Below, piece by piece: positions 32,758-63,279 of a DNA stretch of 64,000 nucleotides. This DNA is from Micromonospora endolithica. GTDB taxonomy: Bacteria; Actinomycetota; Actinomycetes; Mycobacteriales; Micromonosporaceae. A program made the position numbers and the translations under genes. The DNA lies in contig NZ_RBAK01000001.1 of the NCBI RefSeq assembly GCF_003626595.1, positions 124,001 through 188,000 of the forward strand. The letters are read 5' to 3'. A model generated the notes under the pieces. It saw only the letters and a list, made by a program, of their open reading frames with translations, did no database searches and was not told the origin of the DNA. Numbering within the stretch: the stretch's first letter is position 1; each line of letters opens with the position of its first letter.

Positions 32758-33708
32758 ATGCTTAACGCCGTCCGTTACAGTAGTTTCGTGCTGTTTGACC
32801 GATTCAAGTCCCGGTGGGCTCTCGGCTGGCTGGCCGCCGCCGTCTGCGTGTCTGTGCTGCTCGCAATCGTGCTGCTAGACAGGCTGCCGATGAAGCGCGA
32901 GCCGGCGGCGCCGGCGGTCCACCTCGCCCCGCCCGATTCAGCCTCGACCGAGCGAGCGCCGATCGACAGCACGCGGTCTCCGGAATCGGTGCCGAGTGCG
33001 GCCCCGGCACCTGACGGGCTCCCCGTCGTTGACTACGACCCGGCACCGGCTGGGTTTCCGCCCGACCGCGACACTCTCGACACCACTCCGCTGACCGAGG
33101 GGTTGTCGCCGACGCGGAACATCCCCGCGTACGACGCGCCAGGCGGGCGGCCACTGGCTTACCTCGCTCCCACCATCAACGGCGTGGAACTCATCACGCC
33201 GGTCGTCGAGCGACGTGTGGGCTGGGTGGCCGTGCTGCTGCCCTCGGCGAACCGCCGTCTCGCCTGGTTGCCACCCGGCGGCTGGACCACGATGCCTCTG
33301 CGCGACCAGCTGGTAGTAGAGCGCCGGCCGCACCGACTGACCTGGTTCCGCGACGGCCGCGCCATGCACTCCTGGGAGGTCAGCCTTGGAATGCCGGGGC
33401 AGGCCACCCCGCTCGGGAGGACCTTCATCCTCGGCCGCACCCCTCCCCCAGAGGCCGTCTATGGGGGTGTGGACATCTACGCCTTCGGCGCAGTGCCCGA
33501 TGACCCGAGCGCGGTGCCGGCCAGCTTGCGAGGCGCGCACATCGGCCTACACAGCTGGCACAACGACGACACCCTCGGAGAAGACGTCACCAACGGCTGC
33601 ATTCGCCTGACCCGCAGCGCACAGCAGCAGATCCTCGACGAGGTCCCCCCGGGAACCAGCGTGGTGGTCGTCGACGCGCTGCCGACGCCGCCCGCGACAT
33701 CCCGATGA
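32758..33708 (+). CDS. L,D-transpeptidase (YkuD) with membrane anchor
   Basis: 316 residues from ATG 32758 (GTG 32788 also possible). One membrane helix lies near residues 22-42, then a Pro-rich stretch and a YkuD domain at about 185-310. Catalytic block: HIGLHSWHN, then DVTNGCIRLT. The family motif is usually (S/T)HGC; here Asn replaces that His, while the nucleophile Cys is present. It should cross-link peptidoglycan stems outside the cell. A small hairpin spans the stop codon. Confidence 0.85.
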   Translation: MLNAVRYSSFVLFDRFKSRWALGWLAAAVCVSVLLAIVLLDRLPMKREPAAPAVHLAPPDSASTERAPIDSTRSPESVPSAAPAPDGLPVVDYDPAPAGFPPDRDTLDTTPLTEGLSPTRNIPAYDAPGGRPLAYLAPTINGVELITPVVERRVGWVAVLLPSANRRLAWLPPGGWTTMPLRDQLVVERRPHRLTWFRDGRAMHSWEVSLGMPGQATPLGRTFILGRTPPPEAVYGGVDIYAFGAVPDDPSAVPASLRGAHIGLHSWHNDDTLGEDVTNGCIRLTRSAQQQILDEVPPGTSVVVVDALPTPPATSR

Positions 33709-34120
33709 CTTCGTGGTCATCCAAGCCTCGCATCTCTTTGTTTGACGACGTCGGCCTTCCTGGGAAGCCGGCCGTCTGCAGGGAACCCGTCCTGTGGAGG
33801 GCCGTTCGCCGCCGCGGGCCGAAGCCCATGTGTCAGCCTTTCACGCGCATGCCGGACGCAGATAGCCGGCAAGCCCCTTCTCCCACAGGATTGGCGTTTA
33901 CTTCGGCAGCCCGCCACTCATGCTGCGCGTAGGTGGCGTGCTCGGCTTCGTCAGGACGCACTGGGCCGGAGAAGCCACGCGAAACCTGGGCCCGCAGGCG
34001 TGGGGCGGGCGGCAGCGCAGCCTCAAGGCGGGGCCACCGATGAAGGATCACGCTGGCCGCCGGGGGGCGCCTTCGCGATTGGTCCTGACCCGCCCCCACA
34101 CCGACGCGCGCGAAATCGGC
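33709..34120. other. Intergenic, nothing recognised
   Basis: About 410 nt between the convergent L,D-transpeptidase and C39 genes. Codon use in all frames is irregular and no repeat stands out before the terminator at 34121. Confidence 0.4.
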
Positions 34121-34157
34121 CGCTGGCCGGGCTCCGTTTCCGGGAGCCCGGCCAGCG
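34121..34157 (-). terminator. Terminator of the 34-kb C39 peptidase gene
   Basis: Perfect 15-bp stem (34121-34135 with 34143-34157) and a 7-nt loop, 20 nt downstream of the minus-strand gene end. Confidence 0.85.
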
Positions 34158-34176
34158 CTCGTGCCGACGATTCGGC

Positions 34177-34824
34177 TCAGCTGGAGTAGCCGCGCTCGGC
34201 GGTCCAGTCAGCGAGCTCTTCGTCGTCAATCCAGTAGTACTTCTTCGGGTCGTACGGGTCGGCGATCTTCATTTCCTCGCTGCCGTCGCGGTAGCCCACC
34301 ACGGTCACGTAGTGCCCGCCCGGGAACACATGTGCATCCCCATCGGTGTCGACCCCGGTGCCGATGGTGTTAACCACCACACCACGCTTGGCGTCGACCG
34401 CCTCCGTCACGTCGGTCCGGAGCTTCTCGACCTGCTCGGGCTTCGCGGTGGTGCCCTTGATCTCGGTTGTCTCGTAGCCGCCACCGGTCATCTCGTTGAG
34501 CACCCGGGTGGTGTCATTGACCGAGTTGGTGCCGGCTTCGGTCGTGCCCAGCTTCTTGGCGACCTCCTTCTGGCTCGGGTCCTTGCCCTGGGTGGAAAGG
34601 GCGATGCTGGTCGCGGCCGGGGCGCAGTAGTAGGCGTTCGGCTGCCTCTCGTAGTCGTGCTCGAGCAGGCGCTTGTCCTCGGCTGACTGCTCCGGCGGCA
34701 CCGCGACGGCCGGCCTGCTTTCCATGGGGCCGGCTTGGACGGCCATCGCGGGGCCGGCGACGCCGCCACCGGCGATCATGAGACCAGCAATGGACGCGAC
34801 ACTCGTGCGGACGATCGAGTTCAT
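34177..34824 (-). CDS. Secreted C39-like (papain-fold) peptidase, copy 1
   Basis: About 215 residues with a Sec signal peptide (SIVRTSVASIAGLMIAGGG, cleavage near PAMA). The catalytic cysteine is in QPNAYYCAPAAT, the histidine in PGGHYVTVVGYRDG, and an acidic residue in IADPYDP. LGTTEAGTNSVNDTTRVLNE is shared with two paralogues at 47.5 and 60.7 kb. The ATG at 34824 is preceded by GGGAGC. It has a conserved structured leader of about 200 nt. The substrate is unknown. The name follows the C39-like fold; no ABC transporter is fused. Confidence 0.82.
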   Translation of the reverse strand: MNSIVRTSVASIAGLMIAGGGVAGPAMAVQAGPMESRPAVAVPPEQSAEDKRLLEHDYERQPNAYYCAPAATSIALSTQGKDPSQKEVAKKLGTTEAGTNSVNDTTRVLNEMTGGGYETTEIKGTTAKPEQVEKLRTDVTEAVDAKRGVVVNTIGTGVDTDGDAHVFPGGHYVTVVGYRDGSEEMKIADPYDPKKYYWIDDEELADWTAERGYSS

Positions 34825-35031
34825 TGATGAAGCTCCCATCGGTTATGCCGCTTCCATGTGAAGTGGAAGCGCACGCACCACGGGGAGGAGTGGACGCCCG
34901 CGGTGCGCCGTTGGTGGGCCTCGGACACCCCCCGACACCGGAACATCGACCGGCTGTCGGGCTCTCGACCAACGGTTACCCCAGCCAGGTTCATGAAAAC
35001 GCTGTGACCTGCTAGAAGCAGTGGGAGAATG
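34825..35031 (-). ncRNA. Conserved structured 5' leader, copy 1
   Basis: This leader and the one at 61.4 kb share, in order and with matching spacing, CATTCTCC, GTTTTCAYGAA, CGAGAGCCCG, TCCGAGGC and GATGGGAGC. Three helices form here: 34931-34937 with 34955-34961, 34875-34884 with 34897-34906, and 34850-34856 with 34864-34870. Each has a counterpart of different sequence but equal position in the other leader, which is covariation. The last block includes the ribosome site. It is probably a cis-regulatory RNA. I could not assign it to a known riboswitch class; the c-di-AMP (ydaO) class was considered but its core motifs are missing. Confidence 0.55.
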
Positions 35032-35349
35032 ACGGACCTCTGAGCGTGGATCGGGCATCCCGGGGGCGTGAGGGCCACGTGCTGGGCATGTCGGCGTTGA
35101 CGGGGCGAGGGGTCAGCAATCTCAGCCCATGACCAGATCGGCTGACTCCCGCGATGGCAGCCGCTGAAATGTCCGCGCTCGCCGCTCGAAGGCAACCTTG
35201 CGCTCTATCAGCAACGTCTCGTCGAAGTCGCCGAGTGATCCGGGGAGGGCGCTGAAAGACGATTGGCGGGCACAGCAGCCGAGGGTCTCGATTACCGCAT
35301 GCCCCGCTTCTCCTTTCGGGTCCGTTTTCAGCGAACTCGCAGGAACCCG

Positions 35350-35367
35350 GTACAGCGTTCCCTGTAC
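35350..35367. promoter_or_regulatory. Palindrome upstream of dsbA
   Basis: GTACAG (35350-35355) and CTGTAC (35362-35367) form a perfect inverted repeat about 70 nt before the start of the DsbA-like gene. Possible operator. The GTAC arms recall the 53-kb CmtR-type site, but the match is partial. Confidence 0.45.
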
Positions 35368-35434
35368 CTTTGCCCGAGTGCCCGCCATGCCGGGTGCTTG
35401 AGGCCGTACTGACCGACCGACAGGGGACGGATAC

Positions 35435-36097
35435 ATGACGAGGAACACGCGGCTGACCCTGGCAGCGATCGTGGTGCTGATGCTGGTGGTGGCTGGCCTG
35501 CTGGCCGTCGACCGCCGCGACGAGGTTCCCGCTGCCAAGACGGCCGGCGGAACGGTCGACACGGCGATGCTGGTCCGCGACGACAGCCACCGGCTGACGA
35601 CTGCCGCCGACGGCAAGGTGACGCTGGTGGAGTTCCTCGATTTCGAATGCGAGGCGTGCGGCGCCGCGTACCCGGCGGTCAAGCAGGTCCTCGCCGCCTA
35701 CGAGGGGCGGATCACCTTCGTGGTGCGGTACTTCCCGATTGCCAGCCACCCCAACGCTGACCTTGCCGCGCGGACCGCGCAGGCCGCGGCAAACCAGGGT
35801 CGCTTCGCCGACATGTATCGGCTGCTGTTCGAGAACCAGACCGTGTGGGGCCACAAGGAGCAGCCGCAGACCGAGGTGTTCCTCGGCTATGCCCGGGATC
35901 TCGGTCTGGACGTTGACCAGTTCCAGCGCGACCTCGACGACCCCGCCACCGCGGCGCGGGTGGCCAGGGACCGGGCGGACGGCGAGGCCGCGGGTGTGCA
36001 GGGCACCCCGACGTTCTTCCTCAACGGGCGCCCCCTGTCCGACCTGCGCAGCAAGGACGACCTGACCGGCGCGATCGACGCCGCTCTCGCCGGATGA
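35435..36097 (+). CDS. DsbA-like thiol oxidoreductase, copy 1
   Basis: 220 residues. An N-terminal membrane anchor (LAAIVVLMLVVAGLLAV) is followed by a thioredoxin fold with active site FECEACGAAYP (CxxC) and the cis-proline motif GVQGTPTFFLNG. It should oxidise or isomerise exported proteins, recharged by the VKOR protein encoded next; the two genes overlap (ATGA). It is a close paralogue of the 53.4-kb gene but lacks that protein's basic N-terminal extension. Confidence 0.9.
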   Translation: MTRNTRLTLAAIVVLMLVVAGLLAVDRRDEVPAAKTAGGTVDTAMLVRDDSHRLTTAADGKVTLVEFLDFECEACGAAYPAVKQVLAAYEGRITFVVRYFPIASHPNADLAARTAQAAANQGRFADMYRLLFENQTVWGHKEQPQTEVFLGYARDLGLDVDQFQRDLDDPATAARVARDRADGEAAGVQGTPTFFLNGRPLSDLRSKDDLTGAIDAALAG

Positions 36098-36735
36098 GCG
36101 CCGCCACCACCACCAGCAAGCCTGCTGTCGCCGCTCCGGGAGCCGGCCAGTTCCTCAGCACCGTCGCCGCGTGGGTCCTCACCGTCGGCGGTGGCATCGG
36201 GCTGCTCGCCGCGGCCGTCCTGACCGTCGAGAAGATCAACCTGCTGACCCGTCCCGGCTATGTCCCGACCTGCAGTATCAATCCGATCCTGTCGTGCGGC
36301 TCGGTGATGACCACGCCGCAGGCCGAGGCATTCGGGTTCCCCAACCCGCTGATCGGCATCGCCGGGTTCGCCGCCGTCACCACGATCGGCGTCATCTTGC
36401 TGGCCCGTGTGCGGCTTCCGCGCTGGTTCTGGCTCGGCCTGCAGGGCGGTGTCACCTTCGGCGTCGTCTTCGTGCACTGGCTGATCTACCAGAGCGTGTA
36501 CGTCATCGGCGCGCTGTGCCCGTACTGCATGGCGGTCTGGGCGGTCACTATCCCGATCTTCCTCTACACCACCCTGAGCACTCTGCGCGCCAACGCCCAC
36601 GCGCTGCCTGCGACCGTGCGTGCCGTCACCGACGGGGCCGCCCGCTACCACAGCGTCATCCTCGTCGCCTGGTACGCCGTCATCGTCGCCGCGATCCTGC
36701 ACCGCTTCTGGGACTACTGGAGCACTCTGGCCTGA
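36094..36735 (+). CDS. Vitamin K epoxide reductase family (VKOR) protein, copy 1
   Basis: 213 residues, five membrane helices. The loop cysteines CSINPILSCGSVM and the active-site CPYC in IGALCPYCMAVW are complete, so it can pass electrons from DsbA to quinone. It overlaps the dsbA stop. The same gene pair recurs at 53.4-54.9 kb. Confidence 0.92.
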   Translation: MSAATTTSKPAVAAPGAGQFLSTVAAWVLTVGGGIGLLAAAVLTVEKINLLTRPGYVPTCSINPILSCGSVMTTPQAEAFGFPNPLIGIAGFAAVTTIGVILLARVRLPRWFWLGLQGGVTFGVVFVHWLIYQSVYVIGALCPYCMAVWAVTIPIFLYTTLSTLRANAHALPATVRAVTDGAARYHSVILVAWYAVIVAAILHRFWDYWSTLA

Positions 36736-47547: not shown

Positions 47548-48240
47548 ATGACCACGACCACGCGTTGGCTGCCGGGCCTCACCCAGGCTCCGGTGATCCG
47601 TAAGGCCGCCCTCGCCGTCGCCGGACTGGCGATGGCCGGCGGCGCCATCGCCGGCCCGGTGGCCGCCGCGAACGCCGCCCCGGCCACGGCCGGCACTGCG
47701 GCTTCGGTCCAGCAAGAGCGCGGCAACGGCAAGGGCGCCGGCGGTAAGGAGCTGGACTTCCATTACAAGTTCCAGGAGACCTACTTCTACTGCGCGCCCG
47801 CGGCCACCAAGATGGCGCTGTCCGCGCTCGGTAAGGACCTGAGCCAGGACGAGCTGGCCAAGAAGCTGGGCACCACCGAGGCCGGCACCAACTCCGCCAT
47901 CGAAACCACCCGCGTCCTCACCGAGGTCAGCGGTAAGGGCTACCGCACCGTCGAGATCCCCGGCGACAAGGCCGACCAGGCCGAGACCGACCGGCTGCGC
48001 GACGACGTCGTCCGCGCCCTCGACGAGGGCCGGCCGGTGGTCGCCAACATCATCGGCACCGGCGTGGACACCGACGGCCACGCCCACGCCTACCCCGGCG
48101 GCCACTACGTGACCGTGGTCGGCTACCGCGACGGCGGGAACACCGTCAAGATCGGCGACTCCTGGTCAGACGAGGGCCAGTACTGGATCAACACCGACAC
48201 GTTGGCCGACTGGATCGCCTCCCGCGGCTACTCCGCCTGA
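47548..48240 (+). CDS. Secreted C39-like peptidase, copy 2
   Basis: About 230 residues. Signal peptide (AALAVAGLAMAGGAIAG) with cleavage near ANAAPA. Catalytic elements are ETYFYCAPAAT, PGGHYVTVVGYRDG and IGDSW. LGTTEAGTNSAIETTRVLTE matches copies 1 and 3. The start is ATG 47548 with GAGAGGTGAG upstream, rather than GTG 47539. It ends in a strong terminator. Its leader differs from those of the other two copies. Confidence 0.82.
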   Translation: MTTTTRWLPGLTQAPVIRKAALAVAGLAMAGGAIAGPVAAANAAPATAGTAASVQQERGNGKGAGGKELDFHYKFQETYFYCAPAATKMALSALGKDLSQDELAKKLGTTEAGTNSAIETTRVLTEVSGKGYRTVEIPGDKADQAETDRLRDDVVRALDEGRPVVANIIGTGVDTDGHAHAYPGGHYVTVVGYRDGGNTVKIGDSWSDEGQYWINTDTLADWIASRGYSA

Positions 48241-60729: not shown

Positions 60730-61395
60730 TCAGCTGGAGTAGCCGCGGGCGGCGATCCAGTTGGCCAGCTTCTGGTCGGTCATCCAGTAGTGCTTCTCCG
60801 GGTCGTACGGGTCGGCCACCTTCAGCCGGTCGCCATCGTCGCGGTACCCGACAATGGTCACGTAGTGCCCGCTGGGGAACACGTGCTGGTCGCCTTCGGT
60901 GTCCACACCGGTGCCCATGGTGTTGGCCACGACGCCTCGCTTGGCGTCGACCGCCTCAACCACGTCGGTACGCAGCTTGTCGACCTGCGCAGGTGTGGCG
61001 GTGGCGCCGCCGATCTCGGTGGTCTCGTAGCCACCGCCGGTCACCTCGTTGAGTACCCGGGTGGTGTCGTTCGCAGAGTTGGTACCGTCCTCGGTCGTGC
61101 CCAGCTTCTGGGCGACCTCCTTCTGAGGCAGGACCTTGCCCTGAGTTGACAGGGCGATCCGGGTCGCGGCCGGGGCGCAGTAATAGCCGTTCGGTTGCTT
61201 CTGGTAGTCGTACTCCAGCACCCGCTTGTCTTCCGGCGGCTGCTGCGGCGGCTCCGGCGGCGGGGGCGGCGGCTGCACAGCAGCGGTCGGCTTGTTCTCT
61301 GTGGGGCTGGCGTGAGCGGCCATCGGAGCGGCAACAGCGCCACCGGTGACCATGAGAGCAACGGACAGAGTGCTCTTGCAAAGAAGTGACTGCAT
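60730..61395 (-). CDS. Secreted C39-like peptidase, copy 3
   Basis: About 221 residues. Signal peptide (LLCKSTLSVALMVTGGAVAA), then a Pro-rich spacer (VQPPPPPPEPPQQPPEDKR) not seen in the other copies. Catalytic motifs are QPNGYYCAPAAT, PSGHYVTIVGYRDD and VADPYDP. LGTTEDGTNSANDTTRVLNE makes it closest to copy 1. The ATG at 61395 has GGGAGC upstream, and a leader matching that of copy 1 precedes it. Confidence 0.82.
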   Translation of the reverse strand: MQSLLCKSTLSVALMVTGGAVAAPMAAHASPTENKPTAAVQPPPPPPEPPQQPPEDKRVLEYDYQKQPNGYYCAPAATRIALSTQGKVLPQKEVAQKLGTTEDGTNSANDTTRVLNEVTGGGYETTEIGGATATPAQVDKLRTDVVEAVDAKRGVVANTMGTGVDTEGDQHVFPSGHYVTIVGYRDDGDRLKVADPYDPEKHYWMTDQKLANWIAARGYSS

Positions 61396-61596
61396 CGTCA
61401 GGCTCCCATCGAGTTGAGGCCTCCGGTACGTCGGAGGGGCGATACCCACGGGGACGGAACGCCCGTAGTACGCCATTGGTGCCTCGGATACTCCCGGCTT
61501 CTGTGGCTCACCATCGGCTTGCCGGGCTCTCGGCCGTCGAATACCCGGTGGAGTTTCGTGAAAACACTGCGTATTTCGCGGAGTAGGAGGAGAATG
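61396..61596 (-). ncRNA. Conserved structured 5' leader, copy 2
   Basis: Counterpart of the leader at 34.8-35.0 kb with the same blocks in order. Helices: 61493-61498 with 61521-61526; 61438-61452 with 61462-61474 (with small bulges); 61420-61425 with 61432-61437. The paired sequences differ from the other leader while pairing is kept. The block GATGGGAGC carries the ribosome site of the peptidase gene, so folding could control translation. Confidence 0.55.
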
Positions 61597-62226: not shown

Positions 62227-63279
62227 TCAAATTCGGCGCGCGGTAAGCCATCGGTCTGGCCAGTAGCCGCTGCCGTCCAGCAGCGGTGCGCCGGAAAGGT
62301 CACCCATGGTCGGGCCGTCTGTCTGGGACCTGCTGGAGATGAACCGGTGGTGCCCCCCGTCGTCGAGGCCCAGATAGATGCCCGAGTGATCGATTTGGTC
62401 GTTGGGTACCGGCTGAGCGTTCAGGAACACCAGGTCGCCGGGGAGCAGACGGTCGATGGCTCGGGCTCGCTGCCCGGAATTGGGCATCAGTTGCGCACCG
62501 GGGCCGAATTCTGCCATCGCATATGCCCGTCGGGGCAGGCCCTCACCGGGCGTGTTCGTGCCGCGCAGCGGATAACCGAGGCGGTGACCGTAGACCATCC
62601 GGAGGTAGCCGGAGCAGTCCAGTGCCAGCTTGCGTTGCGGCTCGGGCGTTTCGCTTTTGCCGTCCGGGAACGTCCAAGAGACGCCAAGGTAGTCGTAGAA
62701 ATCAGATCGCTCCTGACGGCCATCCGGGTCCGCAGGGTCCGGCGGCCCGAATGATGCGTCCCCCGCATACTGTTGTCCATCGTTGTTCTTCTTCGCCGGG
62801 GCTTCGTCGACGTATTCGAAGGCGATCGCCAGCACATCCGGTGAGCGGTCCTGGCGGGCTGCTGAGAGCCAATCAACGAACCACGCCTGGGTTTCCGCGC
62901 CGGCCCGCCACGGCTGCGGTGCGATCCGAACCCACACCTGCGTATCGACCTTCGCGGATGTAAAGGTCGGCTCCTCAAACGTTCGCGTCGGCCCGTAGAT
63001 TTGCACAGTCCGCGCGCCATCAGTCATGACCGCCACAGGTTGCCCGGACGAGTCGATGATCTCCGTACGGTCTGGCTCCTTCGACCGCTGGTAGGTGTAG
63101 CCCGAGGGGCCAGATGTGCGCCCCCCGGCCGCACCCGCGCCACCTAACGTGATTTCGGGTTGATCGTCTGGATTTGGCCGCACCGCCACATAGGTGATCG
63201 CGGCGGTAAGAACCAACAGCATGAACCCGGCGATGTTCAGTAGGACGACGCGTCTACGAAAGTGCGCCCAGAGTTTCAT
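62227..63279 (-). CDS. NlpC/P60-family cell-wall hydrolase, membrane anchored
   Basis: 350 residues. An N-terminal anchor (VVLLNIAGFMLLVLTAAITY) is followed by an outer region of about 150 residues (SH3-like) and an NlpC/P60 domain: catalytic Cys in LALDCSGYLRMVYG, GDLVFLNAQ, catalytic His in DHSGIYLGLDDGG, and a further His in HHRFISS. It is expected to cut peptidoglycan stem peptides. The start is ATG 63279 with GGGGAGAAGG upstream. Confidence 0.85.
   Translation of the reverse strand: MKLWAHFRRRVVLLNIAGFMLLVLTAAITYVAVRPNPDDQPEITLGGAGAAGGRTSGPSGYTYQRSKEPDRTEIIDSSGQPVAVMTDGARTVQIYGPTRTFEEPTFTSAKVDTQVWVRIAPQPWRAGAETQAWFVDWLSAARQDRSPDVLAIAFEYVDEAPAKKNNDGQQYAGDASFGPPDPADPDGRQERSDFYDYLGVSWTFPDGKSETPEPQRKLALDCSGYLRMVYGHRLGYPLRGTNTPGEGLPRRAYAMAEFGPGAQLMPNSGQRARAIDRLLPGDLVFLNAQPVPNDQIDHSGIYLGLDDGGHHRFISSRSQTDGPTMGDLSGAPLLDGSGYWPDRWLTARRI

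Follow-up and report, generated by a model that had tools for sequence, protein, structure and literature searches.

The 64,000-nt stretch of the Micromonospora endolithica genome analysed here (the window) encodes two predicted secreted proteins of the Peptidase_C39_2 family, copies 1 and 3, each preceded by a leader with promoter-like, hairpin-forming and ribosome-binding elements. The coordinates of the genes and of the leader features are collected in Table 1; the signal peptides of both proteins were judged by eye. The Pfam neighbours of the two genes (32758-36735 and 62227-63279) are envelope-related and include YkuD L,D-transpeptidase, DsbA-like, VKOR and NlpC/P60 families. The window has one further C39_2 gene (47593-48234, plus strand), with 53% identity to copy 1 across the matched part; the hairpin module described below was not found in its leader.

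Table 1. Features of the two C39_2 leaders and genes (positions in the window; promoter, hairpin and Shine-Dalgarno assignments are predictions)
Feature	Position	Strand	Basis
C39 copy 1 leader	34825-35031	minus	
-35 box GTTTTC of SigB/F-type promoter, copy 1	34995..35000	minus	letters and constant spacing in homologues
-10 box GGGTAA, 13 nt past the -35 box, copy 1	34976..34981	minus	homologues; consensus as quoted in PMC8346170
First hairpin CCCGACA/TGTCGGG, copy 1, predicted near the RNA 5' end	34931..34961	minus	
Hairpin A, extended form, GCACCGCGGG/CCCGTGGTGC, copy 1	34875..34906	minus	
Hairpin B, CGCTTCCA/TGGAAGCG, copy 1	34849..34871	minus	covariation from the wider family
Linker and Shine-Dalgarno CCGATGGGAG, copy 1	34833..34848	minus	homologue in the wider family: CAACCCCCGAATGGAG
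Peptidase_C39_2 copy 1, predicted secreted, start ATGAAC at 34824	34177..34824	minus	PF13529, E 1.9e-20
C39 copy 3 leader	61387-61596	minus	
-35 box GTTTTC, copy 3	61560..61565	minus	
-10 box GGGTAT, copy 3	61541..61546	minus	
First hairpin CCCGGC/GCCGGG, copy 3	61493..61526	minus	
Hairpin A, extended, imperfect, GTACTACGGG/CCCGTGGGTA, copy 3	61443..61471	minus	
Hairpin B CCTCCG/CGGAGG, copy 3	61420..61437	minus	
Shine-Dalgarno GGGAG, copy 3	61403..61407	minus	
Peptidase_C39_2 copy 3, predicted secreted, start ATGCAG at 61395	60730..61395	minus	PF13529, E 1.6e-19 (60730-61380)

In pairwise alignment the leaders of copies 1 and 3 could be aligned over their full length, and blastn with leader 1 recovered the DNA upstream of copy 3 at 69% identity across 130 nt (E 2e-6). 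A sequence-only reading of this locus had described five blocks shared by the two leaders, three helices kept with different bases, and a ribosome site within the 3' block. The end-to-end alignment agrees with the sharing of the blocks, the three helices can be written in both copies, albeit with an imperfect hairpin A in copy 3, and the 3' block GATGGGAGC does hold the ribosome site. This same block (34822-34839, minus strand) contains an in-frame ATG, so that gene prediction may set the start of copy 1 five codons too far upstream; homologues favour a start at the ATGAAC at 34824 over one at the ATG within GATGGGAGC at 34839. Computed folding of the copy 1 leader was more stable than that of its own shuffled versions (z -2.86), and the copy 3 leader showed no gain over its own shuffles (z -0.15).

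The first of the shared blocks have the character of a promoter. Across 12 distinct long leaders from other Micromonospora genomes (14 rows, in which L014 and L042, and likewise L018 and L043, the latter pair judged by equal matches, are the same leader), the pattern GTTTT(C/T)-N13-GGGTA is kept with identical spacing, and at the level of motifs the window leaders carry a SigB/F-type promoter as defined by a GTTT -35 element and a GGGTA -10 element 12-14 nt apart. The Bacillus subtilis SigB consensus quoted in PMC8346170 is GTTTAA-N12-14-GGGA/TAA/T, and the Streptomyces coelicolor promoters excerpted there include GTTTCC-N13-GGGTAT. The S. coelicolor SigB-family promoters given in that source likewise have a GTTT... 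-35 and a GGGTAA/T -10 element, and the window spacer of 13 nt falls within their 12-14; in Micromonospora, the boxes would be read by a putative SigB-type factor. Four sigma factors of the SigB/F/G type scored above the curated cut-off in the M. endolithica genome, where the pattern GTTT-N15-GGGTAACC occurs at three places, copy 1 among them, as against none for the reversed pattern. Transcription of copy 1 is predicted to start about 7-10 nt beyond the -10 box. With such a promoter in the 5' third of the leader, the RNA would begin near 34969-34966, and the first blocks, which the sequence-only reading had counted as RNA along with the rest of the 207 nt, would lie outside it. For the same reason, the 5' side of a further outer helix, P1 (CCGTTGG/CCAACGG), would lie mostly upstream of the predicted start; P1 was rejected, its covariation among 15 homologues being equalled by 200 of 500 shuffles.

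To describe the subgroup to which the window leaders belong, a covariance model (R1) with a near-zero covariation term was built from the 12 long leaders. Among 160 Micromonospora genomes, R1 had full-length places in 11, 15 in all; in a 250-genome sample of the family, no full-length place fell in another genus. Fourteen of the 15 places lie directly before C39_2 matches, and the fifteenth (L091) also precedes a C39_2 match. In these 15 leaders, hairpins A and B together gave a covariation of 0.219 against 0.191 +- 0.017 for shuffled alignments, a value reached by 26 of 500 shuffles, and the arm-swapping test, in which each arm is paired with arms from other leaders, gave p values of 0.15 for hairpin A and 0.042 for hairpin B. 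The window subgroup taken by itself weakly supports the two predicted hairpins. Covariation between two paralogues, which had been offered as evidence for RNA structure, does not suffice for that purpose, as the shuffle counts for the subgroup and for P1 illustrate. Moreover, hairpins A and B are missing at five C39_2 loci that retain the SigB-type promoter and the ribosome site; these have four distinct short leaders, those of L021, L027 and L100 and one found identically at L020 and L045, perhaps from one species. In the wider family described below, hairpin A is absent from three leaders (L024, L026 and L108). The structure is hence dispensable in some paralogues, and the refutation named in the sequence-only reading, homologues that do not keep the helices, applies in part.

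Partial R1 matches were also observed before a WhiB-family gene, presumably wblE/whiB1, whose copy in the M. endolithica genome matches Pfam PF02467 and has the same block of promoter and first hairpin (L061, C9:186957). An nhmmer profile of promoter and first hairpin, made from the 12 long leaders, matched four of 30 wblE loci with E values of 6e-11 to 2e-8, all four in Micromonospora, and a fifth Micromonospora wblE locus at E 5e-4. The window subgroup looks like a chimera, in which a wblE-like SigB-type promoter and first hairpin are combined with the 3' module seen in other C39 leaders. Among the 30 wblE leaders gathered across Micromonosporaceae (L235-L264), 19 have the motif GTTN-N15-GGG(T/A)(A/T), followed in many of them by a stem whose letters differ by genus, and in three of the five Micromonospora wblE loci a SigR-like GGAAT-N19-GTT motif stands in tandem, downstream of the SigB-type motif. 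The first hairpin of wblE was considered as a family-wide covarying stem and not retained: compensatory changes are visible, but the comparison of own with swapped arms gave p 0.076 (13 leaders). A further place in the M. endolithica genome (L059, C18:90253-90279) has a SigB-type motif and then a CGAGAGCCCG block resembling the C39 and wblE leaders; there was no obvious gene in the stretch read, and the place possibly encodes a small RNA.

The leaders of more distant C39_2 genes have a cleaner form of the 3' half of the window leaders. Their order is CCGAGCGCC-NYUCCC-GGUGC (hairpin A), a short linker, hairpin B, CAACCCCCGAAUGGAGC and the start codon, the 3' linker being of the CAACCCCCGAA type, C-rich and followed by the Shine-Dalgarno sequence. 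Sequence comparison identifies the 3' half of each window leader as a diverged version of this Micromonospora-wide leader. For its analysis, 60 distant C39_2 stretches were added to the earlier loci to give 87 upstream stretches, of which 81 have the ribosome-site motif (all except L004, L005, L006, L007, L008 and L134). Setting aside two exact duplicates left 79, omission of four without the CGAGCGCC start (L024, L026, L108 and L147) left 75, and removal of 17 near-duplicates left 58, a non-random sample drawn from the best-scoring C39_2 matches. A covariance model built from these 58 leaders (R2) placed its two best matches in the 64-kb window at the two window leaders (E 4.8e-4 and 0.036). 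Of 300 Micromonosporaceae genomes, 96 were matched by R2, 95 of them Micromonospora and one from another genus; the 95 come from at least 106 Micromonospora genomes, so that at least 11 are without a match. Up to 11 copies were found per genome. Two copies in one genome (G072; L207 and L208) sit at contig ends, for which reason the repeated family may break draft assemblies and the copy numbers may be underestimates.

The module also precedes a second family of genes. Forty further R2 copies were fetched, hand-picked and non-random among the matches listed; two are cut off by contig ends, and L204 and L210 were left out of one follow-up step. A tblastn check of the 38 complete copies placed 34 before a muramidase-like protein and four before C39_2. 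No Pfam family reaches its cut-off in the muramidase-like protein, which is about 180-200 residues long and is related to two muramidases of solved structure, 8b2e (phmmer E 6e-13) and 8b2h (1e-13). Both entries are tabulated among the structures of the GH184 paper (PMC10394673), and homology to them assigns the downstream protein to the GH184 muramidases, with a predicted enzyme activity. The M. endolithica copy L164 and the copy from the other genus (L267) both precede the muramidase-like protein. Apart from the N-terminus, the C39_2 and muramidase-like families are different proteins. At nine muramidase-like loci, a stretch of 40-64 residues matches the C39 protein of the window (E about 1e-6); by eye it corresponds to the signal peptide, and leader and signal peptide may accordingly have spread as one cassette. 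In one Micromonospora genome (G148; L196-L198), a minisatellite whose unit resembles GACGAGGC..CCCGCC, variable in copy number, lies between the promoter and the module of muramidase-like genes.

We examined the structure of the module in two alignments, one made with MAFFT from the 58 leaders and one fitted to R2 (A6, 79 rows). In the MAFFT alignment, 90.6% of the cells of both hairpins are paired, against 37-54% when the arms are slid, and covariation was 0.139 compared with 0.072 +- 0.008 after shuffling (0 of 500 shuffles). The corresponding values for A6 were 94.3% of cells paired and a covariation of 0.298 compared with 0.109 +- 0.009, again reached by none of 500 shuffles; slid controls gave 0.03-0.10, and two-sided changes occur in all eight pairs of hairpin B. 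Both R2 and A6 were fitted to the proposed structure. Because A6 leans towards the structure through R2, a coupling scan and arm-swapping tests were added; two rows counted among the 79, L163 (a second, partial place) and L127 (reverse strand), were omitted from the 77-row analyses. In the scan of well-filled columns in 77 rows, seven of the 11 strongest pairs are pairs of hairpin B. The other four (columns 57-101, 11-134, 12-105 and 13-105; z 5.1-7.2) are isolated and form no helix; columns 12 and 13 have more than 80% standard pairs with column 105, and we read the four as putative differences between the two gene families. When arms were swapped among 57 non-redundant copies, own arms paired at -14.1 and swapped arms at -9.9 kcal/mol (permutation p < 1e-4), with the own arm best of all in only 10 of the 57. 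On this evidence hairpin B, as predicted from the alignments, covaries strongly in the wider family and has the covarying pairs expected of a structured cis RNA. The proposal of a structured leader before C39-like peptidases is thereby upheld in its last hairpin, where compensatory changes became apparent once homologues were added. The module sits between promoter motif and start codon in both gene families, and would therefore be transcribed. A protein-coding leader was ruled out, as the lengths of the hairpin-B region have no 3-base period and the region is non-coding. 

The promoters of the wider family are of a different type. A search of the upstream 300 nt found the motif GGAAT-N18-GTT in 52 of the 58 C39_2 leaders and in all 19 muramidase-like ones, against shuffled averages of 0.08 and 0.015, respectively; among the 52, its distance to the module is 49-60 nt in 39 cases and 15 nt in one. 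This is the SigR consensus as cited from Paget et al. in PMC2375139, and 71 of 77 wider-family copies are preceded by exactly this motif with this spacing. Window copies 1 and 3 have the SigB-type motif instead, which suggests that SigR-type and SigB-type promoters have been exchanged around a retained 3' leader module. One sigma factor of the SigR/SigH type scored above the curated cut-off in the M. endolithica genome. Sites similar to those of SigR are also read by other ECF sigma factors. Since the known SigR regulon concerns oxidative stress and the genes of the wider family encode wall-type enzymes, such a factor may read these sites. At four loci of the M. endolithica genome (L005, L009, L011 and L012), one or more GGAAT-N18-GTT-like motifs were seen by eye before a C39_2 gene and muramidase-like genes.

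Taken together, these results confirm a shared leader, though not as a single uniform RNA. The two hairpins differ in the way they are conserved. Hairpin A has the stem GCGCC/GGUGC in 71 of 77 rows, and shows no covariation because the stem hardly changes. Between the two gene families, identity is 0.99 in stem A, 0.85 in the 3' linker and 0.92 in the Shine-Dalgarno sequence, against 0.50 in stem B, 0.49 in the inter-hairpin linker, 0.30 in loop A and 0.33 in the DNA just upstream. That stem A and the 3' linker stay fixed while stem B, constrained only to pair, drifts in the same sequences is the main reason to favour sequence-specific recognition, which the near-invariance of hairpin A suggests. 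We therefore hold, with moderate confidence, that this is a shared Micromonospora leader, composed of the predicted hairpins A and B, a C-rich linker and a likely ribosome-binding site, which would be transcribed by stress sigma factors and likely tunes translation or mRNA lifetime through hairpin A and the linker. Under this reading, the sigma factor would set the timing, a SigR-like factor for most copies examined and a SigB-like factor for the window pair, with promoter use deduced from the motifs; the leader would then likely set the translation or the mRNA lifetime of the predicted-secreted wall-type enzymes; and a putative trans-acting factor, either an RNA-binding protein or a small RNA, would read hairpin A and the linker beside the Shine-Dalgarno sequence. 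Post-transcriptional tuning of stress-induced envelope enzymes is, in short, the likely function of the leader. More tentatively, and with considerable doubt, hairpin A and the CAACCCCCGAA linker could be the docking site of an undiscovered trans regulator that coordinates the secreted cell-wall enzymes of a genome, up to about ten in number, forming a genus-specific RNA regulon laid over SigR- and SigB-type promoters and carried by a portable leader cassette.

The same conservation bears on a simpler account, which is a serious one although we consider it somewhat unlikely: that the leader is passive, its hairpins protecting the 5' region of the mRNA or keeping the ribosome site clear, with the cassette copied from gene to gene and all regulation residing in the promoter. 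The high constancy of the promoter motifs, the paralogues that do without hairpins, the apparent signal-peptide stretch common to nine muramidase-like loci and the window C39 protein, and a Shine-Dalgarno sequence that is not specially sequestered would all follow from it. A cassette free of function would, however, be expected to drift evenly, which is at odds with the difference between stem A and its linker on the one hand and hairpin B and the upstream DNA on the other.

A metabolite riboswitch acting on translation, the class implied by the sequence-only reading, is improbable. A conserved structured leader ahead of wall-type enzyme genes would suit it, and there is a precedent in the ydaO/yuaA c-di-AMP riboswitch (RF00379), which precedes cell-wall hydrolase genes in other actinobacteria and controls them. 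However, the whole window gave no match to Rfam 15 at the gathering threshold; with E values up to 10, the copy 1 leader gave just two chance matches, both within the gene, and the copy 3 leader none; and ten wider-family loci searched with E up to 1 gave three chance matches, all in L011. No covariance-model match to RF00379 was obtained at the thresholds used, and the predicted fold of the C39/muramidase leader is far smaller and simpler than that of the ydaO/yuaA RNA. The lack of a known riboswitch class reported earlier is in this respect borne out. The module consists of two simple hairpins in about 70 nt, and no pseudoknot or second helix was apparent in the coupling scan of 77 rows. Nor was there a clear excess of Shine-Dalgarno sequestration, the mean unpaired value being 0.27 compared with 0.25 for shuffled upstream sequence (higher in 51 of 77); in the absence of both sequestration and a second helix, a classical switch is not favoured. 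The 5' arm of hairpin B (CTCC/CTTCC), a possible mask of the Shine-Dalgarno sequence in the window subgroup, was discarded as an anti-Shine-Dalgarno element, being freely replaced in the wider family (for example in L132, L137, L141, L144, L151, L155 and L164); by eye, L028, L044 and L091 of the window subgroup keep a CTCC/CTTCC-type arm though the hairpin decays. Masking by the UCC of the hairpin A loop was likewise set aside, because by eye it applies to C39_2 leaders only and the muramidase loops are of the UGAC type. Least probable of all is that hairpin A serves as a DNA operator for a transcription factor: its arms, GCGCC/GGTGC, do form an inverted repeat in 71 of 77 rows, but the spacer between them varies (4 nt in 14 rows, 5 in 8, 6 in 50 and 7 in 5), which a dimeric binding site would poorly tolerate, and the compensatory changes in hairpin B point to RNA.

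In the preferred reading, that of a leader tuning stress-induced envelope enzymes after transcription, this element resembles candidate leader RNAs found by comparative genomics (as in PMC2864571 and PMC6429828), which likewise show conserved hairpins with compensatory changes and an unassigned function. It differs from those candidates in having been found in one genus and one genome of another genus, in being multicopy and in having no Rfam 15 match. The titles and abstract openings among the literature matches listed contain no description of this Micromonospora leader element.

Micromonospora is a genus of antibiotic-producing actinomycetes, in which two families of wall-type enzymes are linked by a leader that has covariation support and no match in Rfam. 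The analysis names exact bases for mutation. If the invariant hairpin is indeed read by a trans-acting factor, it would provide a way into the control that filamentous actinomycetes exert on cell-wall remodelling after transcription.
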